From Coemansia sp. RSA 922 (Eukaryota > Kickxellomycota > Kickxellomycetes > Kickxellales > Kickxellaceae), in assembly GCA_027577415.1 (NCBI GenBank), contig JANBQS010000538.1:1-15754 (forward strand): a stretch of 15,754 bases of DNA, read 5' to 3'. Under the pieces are notes generated by a model. That model did not search any database and was not told the DNA's origin. It saw only the letters and a list, made by a program, of their open reading frames with translations. Positions 6,013 through 15,754 of this stretch are shown here, in pieces. Each line of letters starts with the position of its first letter. Positions within the stretch are counted from its first letter, which is position 1. Both the position numbers and the translations under genes were made by a program.

Positions 6013-6466
6013 GCGCCATGCATTTTTTTTTCGTCTACTGATCGGCAGAGAGATGTGATGTTCTGGGCTTTTTGCATGCTTTCTTTCAGACAGTATACCT
6101 CCAAATGGAGATGAATCGAGTGTGAAGTAAATGCCGTATCTACAGAAAGTAAGGGAAGCACTTGGTGTTCTCGCCTAGACTCTCGAGGAACAAATGAACG
6201 CCCCTCTCTTTAATTTCTGTTCTAGCCTTGGCAGACTCGCTCGCATGACTTTTTTTCTTCTTGTCTCCCCTTTTTAAGAGCCCGAACCCGCTTTCCGTCT
6301 CTTTTGTCTCTTCATTTTCTTCTTGGCGCTCTTTTTTTTTTTTTTCTTTTGTTGTACTCTTTATTTTAAAACACTGACGAATTCAATATTTTTATTTTAT
6401 TTCGAGCTCATTTAGTCGTGTACGACTAGAAACCTCCCCCCTCACAAACTACATACTGGCGACTTG
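6013..6466 (+). promoter_or_regulatory. Pyrimidine-rich intergenic region upstream of the DGAT2-like gene
   Basis: This is a 454-bp gap without a gene. From about 6245 to 6360 the plus strand is nearly all C and T, with a T run of about 15 near 6332-6346. This is followed by an AT-rich stretch (6360-6400). An inverted repeat with 7-bp arms, TAGTCGT (6413-6419) and ACGACTA (6422-6428), lies about 40 bp before the ATG and could be a protein-binding site or a leader hairpin. No clear TATA box is seen. Confidence 0.4.
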
Positions 6467-7600
6467 ATGCTTGCCACGAGGGCTAACGCGTCAGATAGCA
6501 TGCAACCACGGGAACCAGCTGCTGACAAGGAGTCAGCAGCAACTAACAGCGCTTCCGAACTGTCGGGCTCGTCTCCATCGTCCGGAAGCTGCGACCGTGC
6601 CATGGAGGAGCCGTACGTGTTTGAACCCAGCAAAGATATACTACAGCTATCTCAAGAGGGTGGGCTATTCATGGTACTACAGACATTTCTAGCGACTCTA
6701 TTTACGGCACTAGTTCTGGTCATGCCACTGCTGCTGATATACATATTTATCCGCGTCAGCTGGGCCAGAATACCTATTGTCGCATACATGGCATTCTGCT
6801 TCGTAGATCCAGCGCTCAACAACGGCGTGGGCCGCCGCATACAGTGGGTACGCACAATGTCTATATGGAAGTATATCAACGCCTACTTTCCCGTACGCAT
6901 AGTGTTGGAGAAGCGACTTGACCCGTCACTCAGCTATATATTTGGCGTATCGCCGCACGGCATCCTGTGTTTCTCGGGCCAAGTAGTCATGGGCTCTTTG
7001 AAAAGTGGTATTGACGAGGCGCTGAAGGGCATTATTGTGCATCCGGCTGGACTCCGGCACGCACTGACTCTGCCACTGTTCCGCGACTACCTGTTGGCGA
7101 TCGGCACAATATCATCGTCGCGAACTAGTATACGAAAATGTCTGGCACGCGGCAATGGACACAGCGTTGGTATAGTTATCGGTGGCGCAAAGGAAAGCCT
7201 ATACACGAATCGAGGCAGTCGTCAGCTCATATTAAAGAACCGTAAGGGGTTTGTACGCGAGGCAATCATGGCTGGTGCGCATTTGGTGCCGACGTTTGTG
7301 TTTGGCGAGAACGATATATTCTGGCAGGTCGAACACCCAGTGTTGCGTCGATTACAGCGCTGGTTACAGTCTAAAATGATGTTTGCATTGCCTGTGTTTT
7401 ATGGTCGGTTTGGCCTGATACCTCGTCGAACTCAGTTAACTGCCGTGTTTGGATCGCCACTGTTCGTAGCGAAGAATCCTAATCCCTCGCACGACGAGAT
7501 CAATAGAGTACACGCGCAATATCTGGACGAGCTGAGTAGAGTCTATGCCAGATTCAAGCCCATTTACGATCCAGAGGGAGACGACTTGGTCATCGCCTAG
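6467..7600 (+). CDS. DGAT2-family diacylglycerol/monoacylglycerol O-acyltransferase
   Basis: This encodes 377 residues of the DGAT2 family, which makes triacylglycerol (or related neutral lipids) from acyl-CoA in the ER and at lipid droplets. The first 55 residues are polar (S, A, E-rich). A long hydrophobic hairpin follows (about 64-110), then Y-F-P (140-142), the active-site motif as S-P-H-G (162-165), G-G-A-K-E (about 239-243), K-N-R-K-G (257-261) and F-G-E-N-D (279-283), all landmarks of the family in the right order. Most fungal and animal members have H-P-H-G. Here the first histidine is serine, while the P-H-G core is kept, comparable to the E-P-H-S variant of plant DGAT2. The ATG at 6467 is the first in frame; ATGs at 6500 and 6602 are possible alternatives. 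Whether it uses diacylglycerol, monoacylglycerol, wax or sterol acceptors cannot be told. Confidence 0.92.
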   Translation: MLATRANASDSMQPREPAADKESAATNSASELSGSSPSSGSCDRAMEEPYVFEPSKDILQLSQEGGLFMVLQTFLATLFTALVLVMPLLLIYIFIRVSWARIPIVAYMAFCFVDPALNNGVGRRIQWVRTMSIWKYINAYFPVRIVLEKRLDPSLSYIFGVSPHGILCFSGQVVMGSLKSGIDEALKGIIVHPAGLRHALTLPLFRDYLLAIGTISSSRTSIRKCLARGNGHSVGIVIGGAKESLYTNRGSRQLILKNRKGFVREAIMAGAHLVPTFVFGENDIFWQVEHPVLRRLQRWLQSKMMFALPVFYGRFGLIPRRTQLTAVFGSPLFVAKNPNPSHDEINRVHAQYLDELSRVYARFKPIYDPEGDDLVIA

Positions 7601-8016: not shown

Positions 8017-10040
8017 CTACTCTTTGGACGTATCCTTCTTCGTCGAGGTCTTTGACCGAGAATCAATGGCCGTCTTTAGCTCCGACATCATGTCAACAAT
8101 ATCGTTTTTGCGCGTGCTCGCGACTTGCTACAACCTTACAGAGTGAGAATATATGTGGTTAGCGTCATACACATATTTGCCCAAGAACGTCGTGAAAGCA
8201 ATGACAAGCATACCTCTTCGGCTCGTTTTTGCTTAGACAGACGAATTCGCTCGCTGCGATCGATGATGGACGACTACAGCACAGATAGATTTGGAGTACA
8301 GGGCACAATCAGTATTGGCAATAGTGGCATGCCGACAGACATTTGAATTAATCTCTCGCTATACACTACCTTGAGTCTCCCCTGACCGGTCTCTTGCTCG
8401 ATATCAGCCTCGAATATCTGCTCGGGAGCATCCAAACTGTCGCCTCCAAAGGGGGTGTACCCAAACACTGTTGCGCCTTCGGGGATTGTCGTCAATCCCA
8501 GCTCAAAATCAGTCAGCTCCGCAGGTACTGTTGATGTAGAGTCGTTCTTGTCACTGCTGGTCGGCTCGGAGCCAGAGTCATAAAACGCGAGACTGGTGAC
8601 AGATGCCTGATACAAATGGTTCAATGCGTCGATATCGGGCTTTAGCGAGGCAAAAACGCGAGCGATTTCTTCTGGCGAGGGCACAGCTTGCCTATTCTCA
8701 GAGCCCACAACATCGTCTTCGACCATGCTGACACACTCGCGGCAAACCAGTATCTTGGCACGTACAGTTTCTAAAGCCTCTGACATGCTACTGAGAGAGC
8801 GAACCAGTGGGTGGTGGCTGCCAGTTGAATCCGTTTTGGTGGCTGCTAACGATGCCCATTTTCTTGCCGTATATTGCGCCTCGCTTGCCTCTTTGACGCG
8901 ATTAGCCGAAAGTCTTGCTGTCTCTGACACGCGCGCAATGTCGGGTACTAAAAGTTCGCATATGGGTAGTAGCTGTTCGGACTGGATGTCATCATCTGTA
9001 TATGACTCGAGAGTACGAATCACCGATTCGAGCCACAGTTTGCGCATGGCAAAGTGCACGGCGAATTTGTGTTTGAGCGCCTCCAGCGACGTTGGTTCCA
9101 ATTCGCTACCATCACCTAACTGCGCTCTAAGATCGGCCATACACATTCGAGTGTCGGAATCCAAGAAGCTCTCCATTTCGCCTTGTTGAGATTGTTGCTT
9201 GGGACGCCCAATGATATCAGCCAATGTATCTATGCTCAGAGACAACGCCGAATCAATTGCCTGACGTACATGTTCCGCCATCCATGCTGAGCCGCGTCCT
9301 GTCGCGGATGCGATAGCCTGCGATCCACGATACTGCGGCAGTCTGAATCCACGAGCCACAAAGTCAACATCCATGACTAGCCGAAGCGCCCGCTGAACTG
9401 TACTGTCCATCGCACGACACTTCAATACCATGCCGTTGAACTTTTCCAAGGTATCGTCACATTTGCCTATCGGGACTCGCCGCTGAGACAGCTGCGTAAT
9501 CGACTGTCCAGTCATTAAGACTGATATCGCAAAGTTGCCCATCATGAGAAGGAACAGGGTTAGGACTATGCCCCAATGCAAGCCACCGAGACCTCCTGGC
9601 CGAAATGCCAATGGCACACATATAAATACCGACGGCATATTCAGCATGACGAATAGGCCAACAATACCTAGGGTACTGCTAGGAAACAGCGCCGGGATGT
9701 TTACTCCTAATGGTTTCAAAGCTATACGGCAAGGTCGAGGCGTGTAGCGCTCGGCAACTAGTCCCGAGTCTGCCAGCGCACTAACAAAGCGGGTGTGCAT
9801 CTCTTTGACGATTGTGCTAGCTACTTTGTGGCTACTCTGTGCGTCAGATGAACGGGCTGCCTGCTGACTAAGCCATTTGCACAACAAGATAAAGTCATCG
9901 GATAATGTTCCCTGAAGCGACTTGTCTGCGGCACTGTCGGTAGCTTCTGGCTTGTCTTCAGCCACAAATGTCTCCGAGGCATCGATATCTCGCAAGTATT
10001 GTGCCAACGGCGAGTCCTCGTACGCTATCACTTCGGCCAT
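8017..10040 (-). CDS. Vezatin/Inp2-type myosin-binding membrane protein, three exons
   Basis: I read this as complement(join(8017..8127, 8214..8273, 8370..10040)), 613 residues. The long first exon starts at the ATG at 10040 (the frame upstream opens only at TTG). It has an acidic N-terminus, two adjacent membrane segments (about 121-146 and 155-176) joined by a G-rich turn, and a long helical cytosolic part. This layout matches the vezatin / myosin-binding domain family, whose fungal members act as membrane receptors or adaptors for class V myosin (Inp2 on peroxisomes) or in septum and tip growth. Removing the two introns adds a charged tail beginning S-S-I-I-D-R-S-E-R-I-R, with E-L-K near the end, a helical tail resembling those seen at the C-terminus of this family. 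Splice sites, branch sites and reading frame all agree. Family call good; cargo membrane unknown. Confidence 0.85.
8128..8213 (-). other. Intron 2 of the vezatin-like gene (86 nt)
   Basis: On the minus strand the donor is GAG|GTATGC and the acceptor TTGTAG|CAA. A canonical branch site GCTAAC lies about 30 nt before the acceptor. Splicing joins GAG to CAA in phase 0 and opens 36 more codons to a TAG at 8017-8019. The alternative upstream acceptor (AAG) would lead into a stop within a few codons. Confidence 0.85.
8274..8369 (-). other. Intron 1 of the vezatin-like gene (96 nt)
   Basis: On the minus strand the donor is AAG|GTAGTG and the acceptor GTGCTGTAG|TCG, with a branch-like TACTGAT about 40 nt upstream of the acceptor. 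Length is a multiple of three and the frame is open through it until the acceptor TAG itself, which acts as stop if the intron is kept. That makes the unspliced frame look like a complete 588-residue gene. Confidence 0.8.
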
Positions 10041-10384
10041 ATTTGTGGACAAAAATTAATAAATCAATAGAGGTAAATCTGACAATAGCTGTAGACATGT
10101 AGCCACTCTACAGCGTCTACTGATGATCGTGTGACCATACCACGCCTTAATATGGGCTAGCTGTTGGCTACCTTTGGCTTGCTACATGAAGGCACATGTT
10201 GCATATCACAAGGCTACTCCAACAATAAACTCATTTTTAGTTCATTGATAAATAATGCTCATGACCATGTAATTTCTGCAAAACGACCTGCTGTCTAGTT
10301 TGAATCATAATTGTACAATTAGCTTAGCCTACAAGTTGGGTTTTCACATACAGCTCGGCCTGGCCGACTTTTAGTAAAGTTGTT
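10041..10384. other. Boundary between housekeeping block and AT-rich array
   Basis: No gene seen. The first 100-150 bp must carry the promoter of the minus-strand vezatin-like gene. Base composition drops to AT-rich from here on. It holds one copy of a direct repeat (10193-10230, second copy at 11181-11221) and a near-perfect inverted repeat TCGGCC-T-GGCCGA at 10355-10367, just upstream of the first TATA box of the array. Confidence 0.5.
10193..10230 (+). repeat. Direct repeat A, copy 1
   Basis: A 38-bp stretch starting CACATGTTGCATATC and ending CTCCAACAATAAAC recurs with a few changes at 11181-11221, about 330-385 bp upstream of the zinc-finger genes at 10524 and 11565 respectively. It shows that the duplicated unit extends well upstream of the promoters. 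The AATAAA inside could be a poly(A) signal. Confidence 0.7.
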
Positions 10385-10390
10385 TATAAA
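10385..10390 (+). promoter_or_regulatory. TATA box of zinc-finger microprotein gene 1
   Basis: TATAAA lies 139 nt before the ATG at 10524. The following leader aligns with that of gene 2, sharing GTGTCCAT/ATGTCCAT, ACAAGCACC, CTAAACTA and CTACATTG/TTACATTG in the same order. Confidence 0.65.
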
Positions 10391-10523
10391 CAGGCGACAA
10401 TTGGGTGTCCATTTGCCGAGGAGGACTATGCTGCATTGTGTTCATATTTCTAATACACCCCGACAAGCACCAAGATAGCTACGCTAAACTATACATATTG
10501 CCTAAGTTTCTCGCTACATTGAC

Positions 10524-10640
10524 ATGAAGAAAGATAATTGGCCCAGACCATGCCTAATTTGTTGGAAGGTACTAGGTTCGGACTTGGAAGCGGCCGAGCA
10601 CTTTAAAAAATACCACCCCGAGTTGTTCGAAGATCGTTAA
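10524..10640 (+). CDS. Single zinc-finger microprotein 1 of the array
   Basis: This encodes 38 residues, almost entirely one zinc finger: C10-x2-C13-x12-H26-x4-H31-P. Hydrophobic residues sit at the usual core position four after the second cysteine (L17) and after the first histidine (F27). The rest is a short basic N-terminus and an acidic E-L-F-E-D-R tail. No signal peptide or membrane segment. Belongs to a family of eight such genes in a row with identical finger spacing; nearest relative is gene 2 (shared K-V-x-G-S, E-A, and H-P-E-L). A single C2H2 finger with a linker this short is rarely enough for specific DNA binding alone, so dimerisation, RNA or protein binding are possible. Function unknown. 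Confidence 0.78.
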   Translation: MKKDNWPRPCLICWKVLGSDLEAAEHFKKYHPELFEDR

Positions 10641-10888
10641 TCAATGAAATAGCTATAATTGTTTGCAGATGGTTTATTCAATATACTGAACTCGTTAATG
10701 TGTGCGATTCTAGTTGTAATAAAATATTTGACTTGGTAGCTACAAATTTGTCAAATCGGCTTGTCTATTGAGCGACCGACTGACTGAGGAGAACATGTGG
10801 ATATTTGCCTCAGAACCGACAAAAGCCCCGCTCTTAGTATTATCTACCTCTTCTCCTTCTTAGCCTATAACTTCAGGTATTGAGCCCT

Positions 10889-11111
10889 CACGCTCTGTGC
10901 GTGCCCGTCCCCGCCTCTGTTAATAGGCGGGACGGCAAATTACTTTTTCAAGCTGTCTTTTGTGTTTTCCCCCTGAATTAGATAAGCTGACCGATCAGCC
11001 TTGGGCAGTTCCTAGTCTTTTATTGACAAGCCATCCCACGTCAGCCCTTCGGCTATTATCCTTGACCATAAAATATATGGTCGTCCTTGTCAAGTGATCC
11101 ACTCTTGTCAA
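10889..11111. repeat. Cluster of inverted repeats
   Basis: At least four hairpin-capable inverted repeats lie within 225 bp: CACGC/GCGTG at 10889-10903; a GC-rich imperfect one with arms 10903-10916 and 10925-10936 around the loop CTGTTAAT; GCTGA/TCAGC at 10986-10999; and GACCATA/TATGGTC at 11064-11082 with a 5-nt loop. TTGACAAG at 11023-11030 is also mirrored by CTTGTCAA at 11086-11093 and 11104-11111. Could be a structured RNA, a small non-autonomous element or chance in part. Confidence 0.5.
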
Positions 11112-11180
11112 ATTTTGTTTAGTTTCTCAGCAATCCGCATCCATGCGTGTACGTCTGTTTTTTGTTTTTTTTTTTCCCCT

Positions 11181-11221
11181 CACATGTCGTTGCATATCGC
11201 TGGGCTATTCCAACAATAAAC
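11181..11221 (+). repeat. Direct repeat A, copy 2
   Basis: Diverged copy of 10193-10230 with the shared core TGCATATC, GGCTA and TCCAACAATAAAC. A T-rich run lies directly before it. Confidence 0.7.
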
Positions 11222-11430
11222 GTACAACTTCTCATTGTCCAAGTTTGTTTGATGACCAATCACGCGGTTGTTTTGAGAATTCTTGTGGCCATTTACTAGC
11301 CGGAATAAATTCTTTCATCCGTTTCTAGAATGTTGTATATCGTGAACTGCAATTGTATTACTACTCTGGCTTTCCTTGTGGTTGAGAGCTTTTCTTTAGC
11401 TTGGTCAGGTTTACCTTTAGCTAGGATTGT

Positions 11431-11437
11431 TATAAAA
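11431..11437 (+). promoter_or_regulatory. TATA box of zinc-finger microprotein gene 2
   Basis: TATAAAA lies 134 nt before the ATG at 11565. The preceding bases AGCTAGGATTGT match AGCTAGCATTGC before the TATA box of gene 4, giving a shared element AGCTAG-N-ATTG-Y-TATAAAAAG. Confidence 0.75.
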
Positions 11438-11564
11438 AGGGCAGCGATAAGGATGTCCATATGCCTAGAGGAATCTCGCTCATAAACCAACCTTCTCCTA
11501 ACAAGCACCGCACTAACTACACTAAACTACAAATACTGCCCGAGTTGTTCATTACATTGGCACG

Positions 11565-11690
11565 ATGAAAGAAAATGCTCCCTGCCCATGCCCGGTATGT
11601 GGGAAGGTGTTCGGATCAGAGAAAGAAGCAGTCGATCACTGCCATGAACAGCACCCCGAGTTAGTAGAATATATTAAACTGCTCTTGTAG
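11565..11690 (+). CDS. Single zinc-finger microprotein 2 of the array
   Basis: This encodes 41 residues with the finger C9-x2-C12-x12-H25-x4-H30-P. The finger has the classical core phenylalanine four residues after the second cysteine (F16), while the leucine expected ten residues after it is alanine. The segment E-A-V-D-H is shared closely with genes 4, 7 and 8 (D-A-V-D-H, D-A-I-D-H). A hydrophobic tail (I-K-L-L-L) follows. Leader, 5' flank and 3' flank all align with gene 1, so these two are duplicates of a unit of at least 450 bp. Confidence 0.78.
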   Translation: MKENAPCPCPVCGKVFGSEKEAVDHCHEQHPELVEYIKLLL

Positions 11691-11859
11691 CTATGATTGT
11701 TCGCATACGACAATTCAATACATATATCTTCACTCTGTACAATTCAAAACTATTACAATTTTCTGATTTTTTTATGAATACATTGTTTTGCCAGAGTTCC
11801 TACATGGAAGTTCGCGTATATGTTTCGGGTTTACAGATGTACATAACACTTTGCTTGAG

Positions 11860-12012
11860 ATGCATTCCATAAATAGTAATAAATGGCAAGGAGTGCATCA
11901 TTGTATTTGTCAATTTTGTATAGAGATTCCCATTTGTACAATCGGTTGTAAAATTGCTCAAGAATGCGTCACCGCTGAGCATCCGTACTATTCCGAAATA
12001 CTTTTGTTATAA
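11860..12012 (+). CDS. Diverged zinc-finger microprotein (C2HC variant), possible pseudogene
   Basis: This encodes 50 residues from an ATG at 11860. It keeps a finger-like pattern C17-x2-C20-x15-C36-x4-H41-P: the spacing is three residues longer and the first histidine is cysteine. A-E-H-P-Y-Y at the end matches the H-P ending of the family. It has no TATA box at the usual distance and sits only 170 bp after gene 2, off the roughly 590-bp rhythm. Its TAA stop (12010-12012) lies inside the TATA box of the next gene. It may be a decaying copy or a real variant with C2HC zinc ligands. Confidence 0.4.
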   Translation: MHSINSNKWQGVHHCICQFCIEIPICTIGCKIAQECVTAEHPYYSEILLL

Positions 12013-12014
12013 AA
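12008..12014 (+). promoter_or_regulatory. TATA box of zinc-finger microprotein gene 3
   Basis: TATAAAA lies 145 nt before the ATG at 12153 and overlaps the stop codon of the diverged copy at 11860-12012. Confidence 0.65.
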
Positions 12015-12152
12015 AAAGGAGACACTTTGACGCACATAAGGTTTGAAAGGATTTTGCCATTATCGTCTATAGTTTTTACTGCCTCTTGGCAAGCGCTACA
12101 ATACATACTCCAAAACCACTATCCTGATTGTGTTATCTATTACATTTCGTCG

Positions 12153-12266
12153 ATGGACCTTACATATCCCTTCCCTTGCATATCTTGTGGAGAGTCGATG
12201 ACATCTTATCTTCACATGCTCAAGCACTATCGCGATAATCACAGCATTGATAAGGGTACCCATTAG
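12153..12266 (+). CDS. Single zinc-finger microprotein 3 of the array
   Basis: This encodes 37 residues with C9-x2-C12-x12-H25-x4-H30. Here the residue after the last histidine is serine rather than proline, and core positions are M16 and L23. The frame is open further upstream without an ATG, so 12153 is the only ATG start. Its position after the TATA box agrees with the other copies, and the leader ends TACATTTCGTCGATG, resembling TACATTGGCACGATG of gene 2. An AATAAA at about 12302 may be its poly(A) signal. Confidence 0.72.
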   Translation: MDLTYPFPCISCGESMTSYLHMLKHYRDNHSIDKGTH

Positions 12267-12611
12267 ATTGGGATTGGACTTTGTGCAAACATGTACAAGC
12301 AAATAAATGTATTTCCGACAAAACACGAGTGATAGCTAGAGACCAAGAGAATTATTGGAGGGCTGCTAGCTTGGTCCTGCTCTTAATGGTCGGGCGGCCG
12401 GAATGGTGACTCAAACAAGCCGCTACAATAGCCCAGCATAGCTTTTAGACTTTGGTTGACGTTGTTCACAGGTTGTATTATAATACAATTTCCTTTGTTA
12501 TTGGTATTTAGAGCCGGCTACTCGCTAGCACAATTATACAATGACTTAATAGTGATCTAATGCTGAGTACCTGCATATCTCTTGAGTTGGTTTTCTTTAA
12601 GCTAGCATTGC
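12267..12611. other. Spacer between array genes 3 and 4
   Basis: No gene seen. It contains an inverted repeat GACCAAG (12341-12347) / CTTGGTC (12370-12376), a small GC-rich patch at 12390-12415, and a perfect 16-bp palindrome TTGTATTATAATACAA (12473-12488) about 125 bp upstream of the gene 4 TATA box. Confidence 0.5.
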
Positions 12612-12618
12612 TATAAAA
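12612..12618 (+). promoter_or_regulatory. TATA box of zinc-finger microprotein gene 4
   Basis: TATAAAA, preceded by AGCTAGCATTGC as in gene 2, lies 126 nt before the favoured ATG at 12738 and 39 nt before an in-frame ATG at 12651. Confidence 0.75.
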
Positions 12619-12737
12619 AGACCAAGCGATGGACACATATTCGCTCAGAAATGCCTCGCTCTAACTTATTAATTACTTGTTATATTTCGCGACAAGCGCC
12701 ACAAGAACTTCGCCCTACTGTAACGACAACTGTAACC

Positions 12738-12860
12738 ATGCGTCATGTTGCCTTGATAATCACAACATATCCCACCTATTGCTTTATTTGTGGGGTGAAG
12801 CTAATGTCGAGTGACGATGCGGTCGACCACTTTGAGGAAAGCCACCCTCCTGTCATATAA
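12738..12860 (+). CDS. Single zinc-finger microprotein 4 of the array
   Basis: This encodes 40 residues with C15-x2-C18-x12-H31-x4-H36-P and a D-A-V-D-H-F core very close to genes 2, 7 and 8. An in-frame ATG at 12651 would give 69 residues, with a 29-residue extension rich in T, R and S. I favour 12738 because it lies where the starts of the other copies lie relative to the TATA box, and because 12651 would fall almost at the expected transcript start. The extension also aligns with the untranslated leader of gene 2 (GACAAGCGCC against AACAAGCACC). Confidence 0.74.
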   Translation: MRHVALIITTYPTYCFICGVKLMSSDDAVDHFEESHPPVI

Positions 12861-13162
12861 CCTAATGTACTTGCCGCTTTATTTTTTTGTCATTTTTGTT
12901 ATCTAGCGGAGCGAGTGTTGGACTTGATAGTTACAAATATATTAAATTTTGAATGTCAATTGTATGATGAACACGACATAGTATTTGTGCACGTAAGGTC
13001 CACTGCATGTTCAGGAATTCCAAGTACAACATGAAATCTCGAGCATGTGATGTTCTCAAAACAATGACATGTACTGCCAATTGTACAGTTCTGGATATAT
13101 TCATGTTTACTCTCTGTATTCATGTTCTATTGAACAGAACCCTCTTAATTATTTACCTGTCA
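12861..13162. other. Spacer between array genes 4 and 5
   Basis: No gene seen. Bases about 12915-12950 (GGACTTGATAGTTACAAAT and on) resemble 10727-10760 downstream of gene 1, another trace of unit duplication. The rest is AT-rich without clear structure. Confidence 0.5.
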
Positions 13163-13169
13163 TATAAAA
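13163..13169 (+). promoter_or_regulatory. TATA box of zinc-finger microprotein gene 5, with adjacent palindrome
   Basis: TATAAAA lies 140 nt before the ATG at 13303. It is followed directly by the perfect 12-bp palindrome GGCTAGCTAGCC (13171-13182). The AGCTAG core of this palindrome is the element found on the other side of the TATA box in genes 2 and 4. Confidence 0.7.
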
Positions 13170-13302
13170 AGGCTAGCTAGCCAAGGGAATAACTAGCGAG
13201 TACTTATACTATATCGCATAATTTCCAACTCCATCCCAACTGGCGTCAAAAATACCGCACCAATTTATTCACCATATTGTTTTCAAGTAACATACCTGCT
13301 CG

Positions 13303-13410
13303 ATGGCAATGGATTATCCTCGCAAATGCCGTTATTGTGGAATGATTATAAAGTCGGCCAATGATGATAAAGCCCACATTCGAAACGACCACCCAAATTA
13401 TCTGTCGTAG
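13303..13410 (+). CDS. Single zinc-finger microprotein 5 of the array
   Basis: The shortest member, 35 residues, with C9-x2-C12-x12-H25-x4-H30-P. Core hydrophobics are I16 and I26. A second in-frame ATG lies two codons later (13309). The finger is basic to neutral, with a D-D-K-A-H turn in place of the D-A-(V/I)-D-H of genes 4, 7 and 8. The tail is only five residues after the last histidine. No signal peptide or membrane segment. Confidence 0.74.
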   Translation: MAMDYPRKCRYCGMIIKSANDDKAHIRNDHPNYLS

Positions 13411-13802
13411 CCTCTAAGCACCTCGACAAGTAGTCGGTAGATTTGGCCTAATTGATTTTGATTTGTCTAATAGAGCTATGAGTATGCATGGTCGATACTA
13501 TCTATTCAAACAACACTCCGCCCTCTGCTAGCAATATTAAATGTACAATATCATTGAAGCCATTGTGAAGGTAGCTATTATGTAGCTCTGCAACTGAGAA
13601 ATAAAATTTTATTATATAGTCGCTTTACTTCTTGCGCTCTTGTATTCTCGAATTCTATATGCCGCCTGGACTCTTATTTTACCTTTGAGGCTAAAGCTAG
13701 CGTCAATAGTTACGATTCTAGCAATGTTCAGAGTCTCTTGTCGTATAATATTATAAACCTTATTTGCCAATTAGCTAATATGTGTCCTTTCCAGCTATTT
13801 CC
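13411..13802. other. Spacer between array genes 5 and 6
   Basis: No gene seen. A perfect 14-bp palindrome AATAAAATTTTATT (13600-13613) puts an AATAAA poly(A)-type signal on both strands. The rest is AT-rich. Confidence 0.5.
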
Positions 13803-13810
13803 TTTAAATA
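13803..13810 (+). promoter_or_regulatory. TATA-like box of zinc-finger microprotein gene 6
   Basis: TTTAAATA lies 118 nt before the ATG at 13921. It is a weaker match than in genes 1-5, but stands in the equivalent place, with AGCTATTTCC just before it. Confidence 0.5.
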
Positions 13811-13920
13811 GCCCTGGTGTCTGGAGCGCAAACACTGTTATACCTTACACATATTTTTACATATCCATTTTCTAATTAGCAGCTACTCTCGTTTATACGA
13901 CAAACCGATTCCTCATCGCT

Positions 13921-14055
13921 ATGGCTTTTACTTATACTTGTAGCACACTATATATTCCACCGGGAGGTGTGCCACCACTCCTTGAGTGCGAAGTCTGTGA
14001 CCTGAAATTCCAGAATTTTGATCAAACAAAAGCTCATTTTGAGGAATATCACTAG
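13921..14055 (+). CDS. Single zinc-finger microprotein 6 of the array
   Basis: This encodes 44 residues with C23-x2-C26-x12-H39-x4-H44, where the last histidine is the final residue before the stop, so there is no tail and no following proline. The core phenylalanine (F30) and the post-histidine phenylalanine (F40) fit a classical finger. The N-terminal 22 residues contain a P-P-G-G-V-P-P stretch not seen in the other copies. C7 is an extra cysteine. Placement after the TATA-like box and spacing from gene 5 (618 bp start to start) fit the array. Confidence 0.7.
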   Translation: MAFTYTCSTLYIPPGGVPPLLECEVCDLKFQNFDQTKAHFEEYH

Positions 14056-14636
14056 CTCACAAAGACTGGGCAATCATAAATTCTATGCTATCGGCTGGCA
14101 CAACATGCAAGACCTCGCGGATATTAGCTTTTTTGGATTCTATCGGTTTTGATTATTATATATTACTTTACATTTTGATTTTGTTGCAAGGCTTCTTACA
14201 GCATATCCGTCTGATCTTCGAGTGGATAGAAGATTGTAATCAATTACATTTCTGAAGCCAATTATTACTGCCACGCATATTGGGGAAAGTGGCTGTTGGG
14301 TGTGCACCGGAGCTGCAAAATGACGCACTCAGTCGGCCCGACAGCCCACGTGAAACATTTCCGACCGGGGGCCTCCGAGCTGTGGGCAAAACACCTCAGA
14401 GGTGGCGGCTGTGAACAAGCTGCCCTCTACGGACGGCAAGACGCACATTAGGAAATCTTGCGCTCATCCCCAACAAAGCCACACCACACTTGTCTGGTCC
14501 CTCCTAAATGCGGCTCTGAAAGAGAACAGCCACTAAGCCATTTAAACAAAGCCCTGAGTACGGTTTAATACATTCGCAACCCTCCATGCTCACTACTTAC
14601 GCTACCCTATCCAACATGATACCCCATTCTGAGCGG
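14056..14636. other. Long spacer between array genes 6 and 7
   Basis: No gene seen. The first 200 bp are AT-rich. A 17-bp direct repeat of 15273-15289 sits at 14200-14216. From about 14270 to 14560 the sequence is clearly GC-richer and has no match in the otherwise parallel region upstream of gene 8, so it looks like an insertion or a segment lost from the other copy. Confidence 0.5.
14200..14216 (+). repeat. Direct repeat C, copy 1
   Basis: AGCATATCCGTCTGATC is identical to 15273-15289. It lies 437 bp upstream of repeat B copy 1; in the second copy the distance is only 95 bp, which measures the extra sequence in the gene 6-7 spacer. Confidence 0.75.
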
Positions 14637-14863
14637 GGCGCAAGGCATGGTAGAAGTTGGTAGGGGAGAAAGAACGGACTGCAAGCCCTCCTCTCTCGTG
14701 TGCATAAAAGCTGCTGCAACCCTCCGATCGCAAGTCGTAATTCTTGCCTTTTCTCTCATTTTTTTTTTTTTGGAATACTCGTTCTTTTTGCCGCATTCAG
14801 TAATCCTTACGCTTGCACTGCTTCATATCTATCCCTGTATTGAATCATGTTGTTCACTAATCG
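14637..14863 (+). repeat. Direct repeat B, copy 1 (promoter and leader of gene 7)
   Basis: About 227 bp from GGCGCAAGGCATGG to the sixth codon of gene 7 recur at 15368-15588. The 3' half is strongly conserved: in the last 75 bp I count 3 differences. A T-tract in the middle differs in length. The match stops abruptly inside the coding region. Confidence 0.9.
14703..14709 (+). promoter_or_regulatory. TATA-like box of zinc-finger microprotein gene 7
   Basis: CATAAAA lies 144 nt before the ATG at 14847, within repeat B. The same box stands at 15433 before gene 8. Confidence 0.6.
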
Positions 14864-15008
14864 TATGCGAGACGCTGCAGTGGAGATAAATCAACCTGGT
14901 CTACTTTGCCAGGAATGCATGCTTTTATTTGACACTGCCAAGGACGCAATTGACCACCTCAATATTTGTCATCCAAGAGGGTGGGTACCTCCTATGGATT
15001 CATATTAA
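14847..15008 (+). CDS. Single zinc-finger microprotein 7 of the array
   Basis: This encodes 53 residues with C21-x2-C24-x12-H37-x4-H42-P-R-G-W. Core F28 and the D-A-I-D-H segment match the family. The N-terminus M-L-F-T-N-R and the H-P-R-G-W-x-P-P tail are shared exactly with gene 8, and the lengths are equal. Between them only 23 of 53 residues agree. The leader has no ATG before this one. No signal peptide or membrane segment. A recent duplicate of gene 8 with a much-changed coding part. Confidence 0.8.
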   Translation: MLFTNRMRDAAVEINQPGLLCQECMLLFDTAKDAIDHLNICHPRGWVPPMDSY

Positions 15009-15367
15009 GATCTCAATGTTTAACGACTATAAAAAATATATTAGTTTAAACATTTATCTAAACCTACGACTGGCCAAGTTGTAAGCACAGCGGCGCACTA
15101 AACTAGCTTCCTTTCTCCCCCTCAACTTATATCTACTACTTGACGGCCAATATTCAACATCTACTAGATGGAAACATAAGACAATGGCATAGGGACTCTC
15201 GAATGACTTGGTAGAGCAAAGGCTTTGGTTGACACAAATGTTTTGCCACGAAGCCACATTCTCGCCGCGTGTAGCATATCCGTCTGATCATCTAGTGGGA
15301 GGGGATCGCTGTTAAAACGGCTAGCCGGAACAAGGTATTGGGGGAGGTGACCTCTCAGGCCAACAGT
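15009..15367. other. Spacer between array genes 7 and 8, possible relic promoter
   Basis: No gene seen. TATAAAA at 15029-15035 is followed by a leader-like stretch (GCGCACTAAACTAGC near 15090 recalls the gene 2 leader) and an ATG at 15168 that meets a stop after three codons. This may be the remains of an older array unit. Direct repeat C copy 2 lies at 15273-15289. Confidence 0.4.
15273..15289 (+). repeat. Direct repeat C, copy 2
   Basis: Identical 17-bp copy of 14200-14216, 95 bp upstream of repeat B copy 2. Confidence 0.75.
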
Positions 15368-15588
15368 GGCGCAAGACATGGCCGAATCTGCTGGAAAGAA
15401 ATGTTGGATTGCAAGCCTCCCACTCACGCGCACATAAAAGCTGCAGCAACCCTCCGATCGCAAGTCGTAATCCTTGCCTTTTTCCTATTTCTATTTGGAA
15501 TACTTTTTCCTTTTGCCACATTCAGTAATCCTTACGCTTGCACTGCTTCATATCTATTCCTGTATTGAATTATGTTGTTCACTAATCG
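15368..15588 (+). repeat. Direct repeat B, copy 2 (promoter and leader of gene 8)
   Basis: Second copy of 14637-14863, covering the TATA-like box, the leader and the first six codons of gene 8. The long T-run of copy 1 is here broken and about five bases shorter. Confidence 0.9.
15433..15439 (+). promoter_or_regulatory. TATA-like box of zinc-finger microprotein gene 8
   Basis: CATAAAA lies 139 nt before the ATG at 15572. Same box and surroundings as gene 7. Confidence 0.6.
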
Positions 15589-15733
15589 CATCAAAGCTAC
15601 TAGATTAGATTTAAATGAAGTAGACATAGTTTGCTTTAGATGCAAGCTTCATTTTAATATTACTGAAGACGCCATAGATCACTTTTATATGTATCACCCA
15701 AGAGGGTGGAGACCTCCTCTTCATATATTTTGA
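15572..15733 (+). CDS. Single zinc-finger microprotein 8 of the array
   Basis: This encodes 53 residues, complete within the window, with C21-x2-C24-x12-H37-x4-H42-P-R-G-W. Core F28, D-A-I-D-H-F. Against gene 7 there are no gaps, the zinc ligands and the flanks of the finger are kept, and nearly all other positions differ, with only five codons showing a same-residue change. This pattern argues that the frame is translated and that its variable positions are under selection. The window ends 21 bp after the stop, so further copies may follow. Confidence 0.8.
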   Translation: MLFTNRIKATRLDLNEVDIVCFRCKLHFNITEDAIDHFYMYHPRGWRPPLHIF

Positions 15734-15754
15734 AACTTCAGTTTTTAGCAAATA

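Follow-up and report, generated by a model that had tools for sequence, protein, structure and literature searches.

An array of lone-zinc-finger microprotein genes in Coemansia sp. RSA 922, part of a genome-wide family

Contig JANBQS010000538.1 of the Coemansia sp. RSA 922 assembly GCA_027577415.1, analysed over its full 15,754 nucleotides (the window; contig C538 below), carries eight small open reading frames (ORFs) on its plus strand, each encoding a single C2H2 zinc finger. Similar ORFs occur on many other contigs, and purifying selection seems to act on the encoded proteins. We favour, with about even confidence, the interpretation that the eight ORFs are separate TATA-type genes for lone-finger intracellular proteins, in which the finger serves as a protein-binding module that modulates or blocks a partner and not as a reader of DNA.

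Eight one-finger ORFs

Every one of the eight ORFs runs from ATG to stop and contains exactly one C-x2-C-x12-H-x4-H motif, with proline directly after the last histidine in six, just as a first-pass annotation of this DNA had reported:

10524-10640, plus strand, finger ORF copy 1; motif ORF, intact in contig C248
11565-11690, plus strand, finger ORF copy 2; motif ORF, intact in C248
12153-12266, plus strand, finger ORF copy 3; motif ORF
12738-12860 (preferred start; alternative 12651), plus strand, finger ORF copy 4; motif ORF
13303-13410, plus strand, finger ORF copy 5; motif ORF, intact in C248
13921-14055, plus strand, finger ORF copy 6; motif ORF, intact in C248
14847-15008, plus strand, finger ORF copy 7; motif ORF
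15572-15733, plus strand, finger ORF copy 8; motif ORF

Chance would rarely produce even one such ORF: 400 dinucleotide-preserving shuffles of region 10380-15754, read on both strands, gave a mean of 0.0025 and a maximum of 1. A family profile of 25 rows, the eight window ORFs included, recovered all eight from the six frames of the window at E <= 2e-7, and the sole further listed row had E=1.8. Successive ORF starts are spaced by 1041, 588, 585, 565, 618, 926 and 725 bases. Copy 4 could encode 40 amino acids from 12738 or 69 from 12651; the former is most likely the start, since the ATG at 12651 is missing from the other haplotype (see below) and has a TATA-like box 39 bases away. With this start the window proteins span 35-53 amino acids, the size range first proposed. 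A ninth, C2HC-like copy (11860-12012) had also been proposed and is not a member: its profile score of 0.1 bits was equalled or beaten by 486 of the 1957 scored shuffles of its own sequence. None of the eight finger ORFs passes a Pfam cut-off, no RNA family matches the window at gathering score, and ARAGORN (bacterial code) found no tRNA in it.

A family spread through the genome

Judged from sequence, the window array forms a small part of a finger family found across the genome. The assembly searched comprises 960 contigs (20.4 Mb), of which the window is one. Genome searches with single proteins found relatives on many other contigs, among them C72, C61, C150, C42, C636, C660, C92, C492, C175, C495, C196, C70, C307, C247, C293 and C170, the weaker of these matches carrying little weight by themselves. 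The original description as a tandem array thus holds for the window and is too narrow for the genome.

A genome search with Pfam zf-C2H2_4 gave 113 matches at E up to 1, of which 50 lie in frames of <=130 amino acids (one with an internal stop; exons may be included and alleles are counted twice), 59 in frames of >=200 amino acids and 4 between. Long frames commonly hold more than one match (16 of 31), whereas only one of 49 small frames holds two. This sole two-match small frame encodes 112 amino acids (G000:C202:17213-17380). The search misses family members, because none of the eight window ORFs is among its matches. Twenty stretches fetched from the assembly, representing 23 of the 50 small-frame matches, were scanned with a loose motif pattern that admits C2HC; 19 of them contain ATG-to-stop one-finger ORFs (21 in all, 38-93 amino acids, one finger-like motif each), as do four of five further stretches. 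Applied to the recovered loci, the strict pattern yields 48 distinct finger strings in 37 clusters, with H-x4-H in 34, H-x5-H in two and H-x3-H in one. Small ORFs of like architecture with C2HC ligands were observed at L066, L067, L068 and L071.

The finger contigs C660, C92 and C492 (L014, L031, L032) share several segments, each some hundreds of bases long, in differing order, and four long frames on these contigs have no Pfam match. An undescribed repeat may aid the spread of finger genes there. Two protein searches, with three candidates each, returned no homologue, and searches of open-licence papers gave, among the matches listed, none on such a family in Coemansia or other fungi. It is plausible that the family is lineage-specific and has been missed by gene callers.

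Selection and turnover

Contig C248 is very probably the other haplotype of the window contig. Its array keeps five copies in place and has one chimeric unit; taken as haplotypes, the two contigs differ in copy number, through presence or absence and the chimera. Among the finger copies compared, one allele has lost a zinc ligand. Selection was initially estimated by the Nei-Gojobori method (omega 0.28), which was replaced by a codon model fitting transition bias because its control gave 0.61 instead of 1. Under the codon model, 13 allelic or near-identical pairs give an omega of 0.40 (p=8e-5) and six array pairs 0.415 (p=0.011), against 0.94 for 13 non-finger ORFs of the region. Comparisons of paralog with paralog give 0.63, a weak constraint. 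Purifying selection thus seems to act on the encoded finger proteins, in support of the earlier proposal of a family of single-finger microproteins.

Two finger copies, L043 (G000:C8:18581-18742) and L052 (G000:C299:4384-4545), contain in-frame stops (TGA, TAG). They closely resemble unbroken copies on C175/C495 and C196 and appear to be dead alleles or family pseudogenes.

Could the whole family consist of relics, that is, exons or fragments of multi-finger genes whose translation has been lost? C2H2 fingers duplicate readily, and the stops in some copies and the lost ligand speak for it, but the contrast in omega, the fact that all eight window copies read unbroken from ATG to stop and the promoter-like box of most copies make this most improbable. 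As the main account, relics or chance ORFs are rejected on the shuffles (mean 0.0025) together with the omega of 0.40 against 0.94.

The same turnover could instead mark a fast-changing intracellular recognition or conflict repertoire, in which variants of one scaffold are directed against components of parasites, transposons or non-self. The large family, its tandem arrays, the presence/absence differences and the chimera that set C538 apart from C248, the weak constraint among paralogs and the copies with stops all agree with such a role. However, Pfam scans of ten long frames flanking finger genes revealed no defence or mobile gene (neither a transposase nor a reverse transcriptase; five of these frames lack any Pfam match), and we regard it as quite unlikely.

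Promoter-like boxes

An upstream scan of the window found these TATA-like boxes:

10385..10390, plus strand, TATA-like box
11431..11437, plus strand, TATA-like box
12008..12014, plus strand, TATA-like box
12612..12618, plus strand, TATA-like box
13163..13169, plus strand, TATA-like box
14703..14709, plus strand, TATA-like box
15433..15439, plus strand, TATA-like box

Seven of the eight window copies have such a box at -126 to -145. In an initial count over the range -165..-105, a box was present for 15 of 26 genes, compared with 6.9% of randomly chosen positions; a later count, its range widened after the initial one and the C2HC gene L013:1551-1706 removed, found it in 22 of 25 against 12%.

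Finger chemistry and possible function

The fold tentatively predicted for these proteins is the classical C2H2 beta-beta-alpha. All eight ORFs contain the pattern C-x2-4-C-x12-H-x3-5-H, which in classical fingers accompanies a hydrophobic core; across the 37 clusters a hydrophobic residue occupies position +4 in 92% and +10 in 89%. Each window protein has one finger, versus at least two in multi-finger C2H2 transcription factors. Acidic residues are frequent at the helix positions that contact bases (57% and 49%), and 25 of the 37 clusters have a finger of net negative charge.

One alternative is that the proteins are single-finger DNA- or RNA-binding regulators, perhaps acting as dimers, which lay their helix on nucleic acid and compete with the multi-finger transcription factors of the genome. 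The predicted fold is compatible with this, the genome does contain long C2H2 frames, and many of the nearest solved structures are DNA-binding fingers, for example the GAGA factor (1yui) and the H-x4-H finger of ADR1 (1paa), although such matches reflect likeness of fold and are uninformative on function. The one-finger GAGA factor, moreover, requires a basic flank, and none is evident here. Since acidic residues sit at the helix positions with which DNA-reading fingers contact bases, nucleic-acid reading is weakened and protein binding preferred; the first-pass annotation had allowed for either, and its protein half fits better, while its decoy and effector proposals find no support in the present data. 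We consider such regulators unlikely.

Metallothionein-like zinc buffers or storage peptides would also explain a predicted zinc site in every 35-55 amino acid protein, and TATA-like boxes are general across the finger genes. Yet a single metal per protein makes for poor storage, and diverse side chains around an invariant x12 spacing suggest a folded module for binding, so that this role is highly improbable.

In the model that we favour, of lone-finger protein binders, each window ORF would be a separate gene, free of introns and served by a TATA-type promoter of its own. Its product would be an intracellular protein of 35-53 amino acids in which one zinc ion folds a lone beta-beta-alpha finger with short tails. 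The family would spread via tandem duplication and change via unequal recombination and loss, retaining the fold and zinc ligands while the remainder varies and the helix stays mostly acidic. Each member would dock on a protein partner and modulate or block it, much as the C2H2 finger of EEA1 sits on Rab5. More speculatively, and with low probability, Coemansia may hold a hitherto overlooked repertoire that turns over quickly and numbers dozens of free-standing one-finger microproteins. All would be variants of a single zinc scaffold whose acidic face varies, and they would serve to recognise proteins inside the cell, perhaps in parasite or transposon conflict or in non-self recognition.

Genomic neighbours

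Next to the array, the long minus-strand ORF at 8274-10040 shows a weak likeness to vezatin. Its product matches 12 proteins, 11 named from Coemansia, which is placed in Kickxellomycotina, and one from Martensiomyces; the best match (94%) bears the name of Coemansia sp. RSA 2337. Other neighbours are ordinary: an Ima1-type protein, a seryl-tRNA synthetase, an AMP-binding enzyme and a diacylglycerol acyltransferase. On C248, the far side of the array is occupied by a WD40 gene that encodes a histone-binding domain of RBBP4/CAF1 type. The same contig carries a second diacylglycerol acyltransferase-like gene (G000:C248:15675-16613), 44% identical to the one at window 6416-7600.

Significance

The module itself is the known C2H2 finger; what is unusual is the architecture, with one finger in 35-60 amino acids, dozens of genes and tandem arrays. 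If the favoured model is right, a eukaryote that keeps dozens of such proteins under selection, with promoters of their own, would represent an unusual use of the domain and would show how much coding content can lie beneath annotation length limits. Tandem paralogs, two haplotypes of differing copy number and proteins small enough for synthesis offer a test system.

Comparison with known systems

C2H2 fingers are usually pictured as beads in long DNA-reading proteins. The Coemansia fingers resemble classical ones (Pfam PF00096, PF13894, PF13912) in ligand spacing, core (F at +4, hydrophobic at +10) and predicted fold, and differ in their solitary finger, the predominance of H-x4-H, the acidic helix and the failure of all eight window copies to reach a Pfam cut-off. 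The docking of the EEA1 finger on Rab5 (3mjh) offers a precedent for protein binding; however, EEA1 is a long tether protein of which the finger is merely part, and the Coemansia proteins bear no sign of Rab binding.

Archaea and the viruses that infect them have free-standing C2H2 proteins, such as a chain of the P. furiosus 70S ribosome (9qf4_Bk) and AFV1p06 (2lvh), which are likewise very small and built on a C2H2 finger; we take 6skg_Bo and B-129 (2wbt) to be further examples. These are ribosomal or viral, their likeness to the Coemansia family is one of size and finger only, and we know of no tandem families among them. Metallothioneins are Cys-rich and hold a metal cluster, whereas the Coemansia proteins have few Cys and a fixed C2H2 spacing. 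MicroProteins in the strict sense are related to larger multi-domain proteins, which they inhibit; long frames with C2H2 matches do occur in this genome. UBZ3 and UBZ4 are ubiquitin-binding fingers with H-x3-H/C ligands. The Coemansia fingers are H-x4-H instead, but they often have an acidic residue just before the final ligand, and the C2HC small ORFs recall UBZ4; this is a lead and no more.

Haloferax volcanii reportedly encodes many predicted zinc-binding micro-proteins of <70 amino acids in one genome (PMC6562870, PMC10716476, PMC11241148), and of 16 mutants with such a gene deleted, 12 showed a phenotype (PMC6562870). The Haloferax proteins are described as carrying two C(P)XCG motifs, in contrast to the one C2H2 site (C-x2-C and two His) of the Coemansia proteins.
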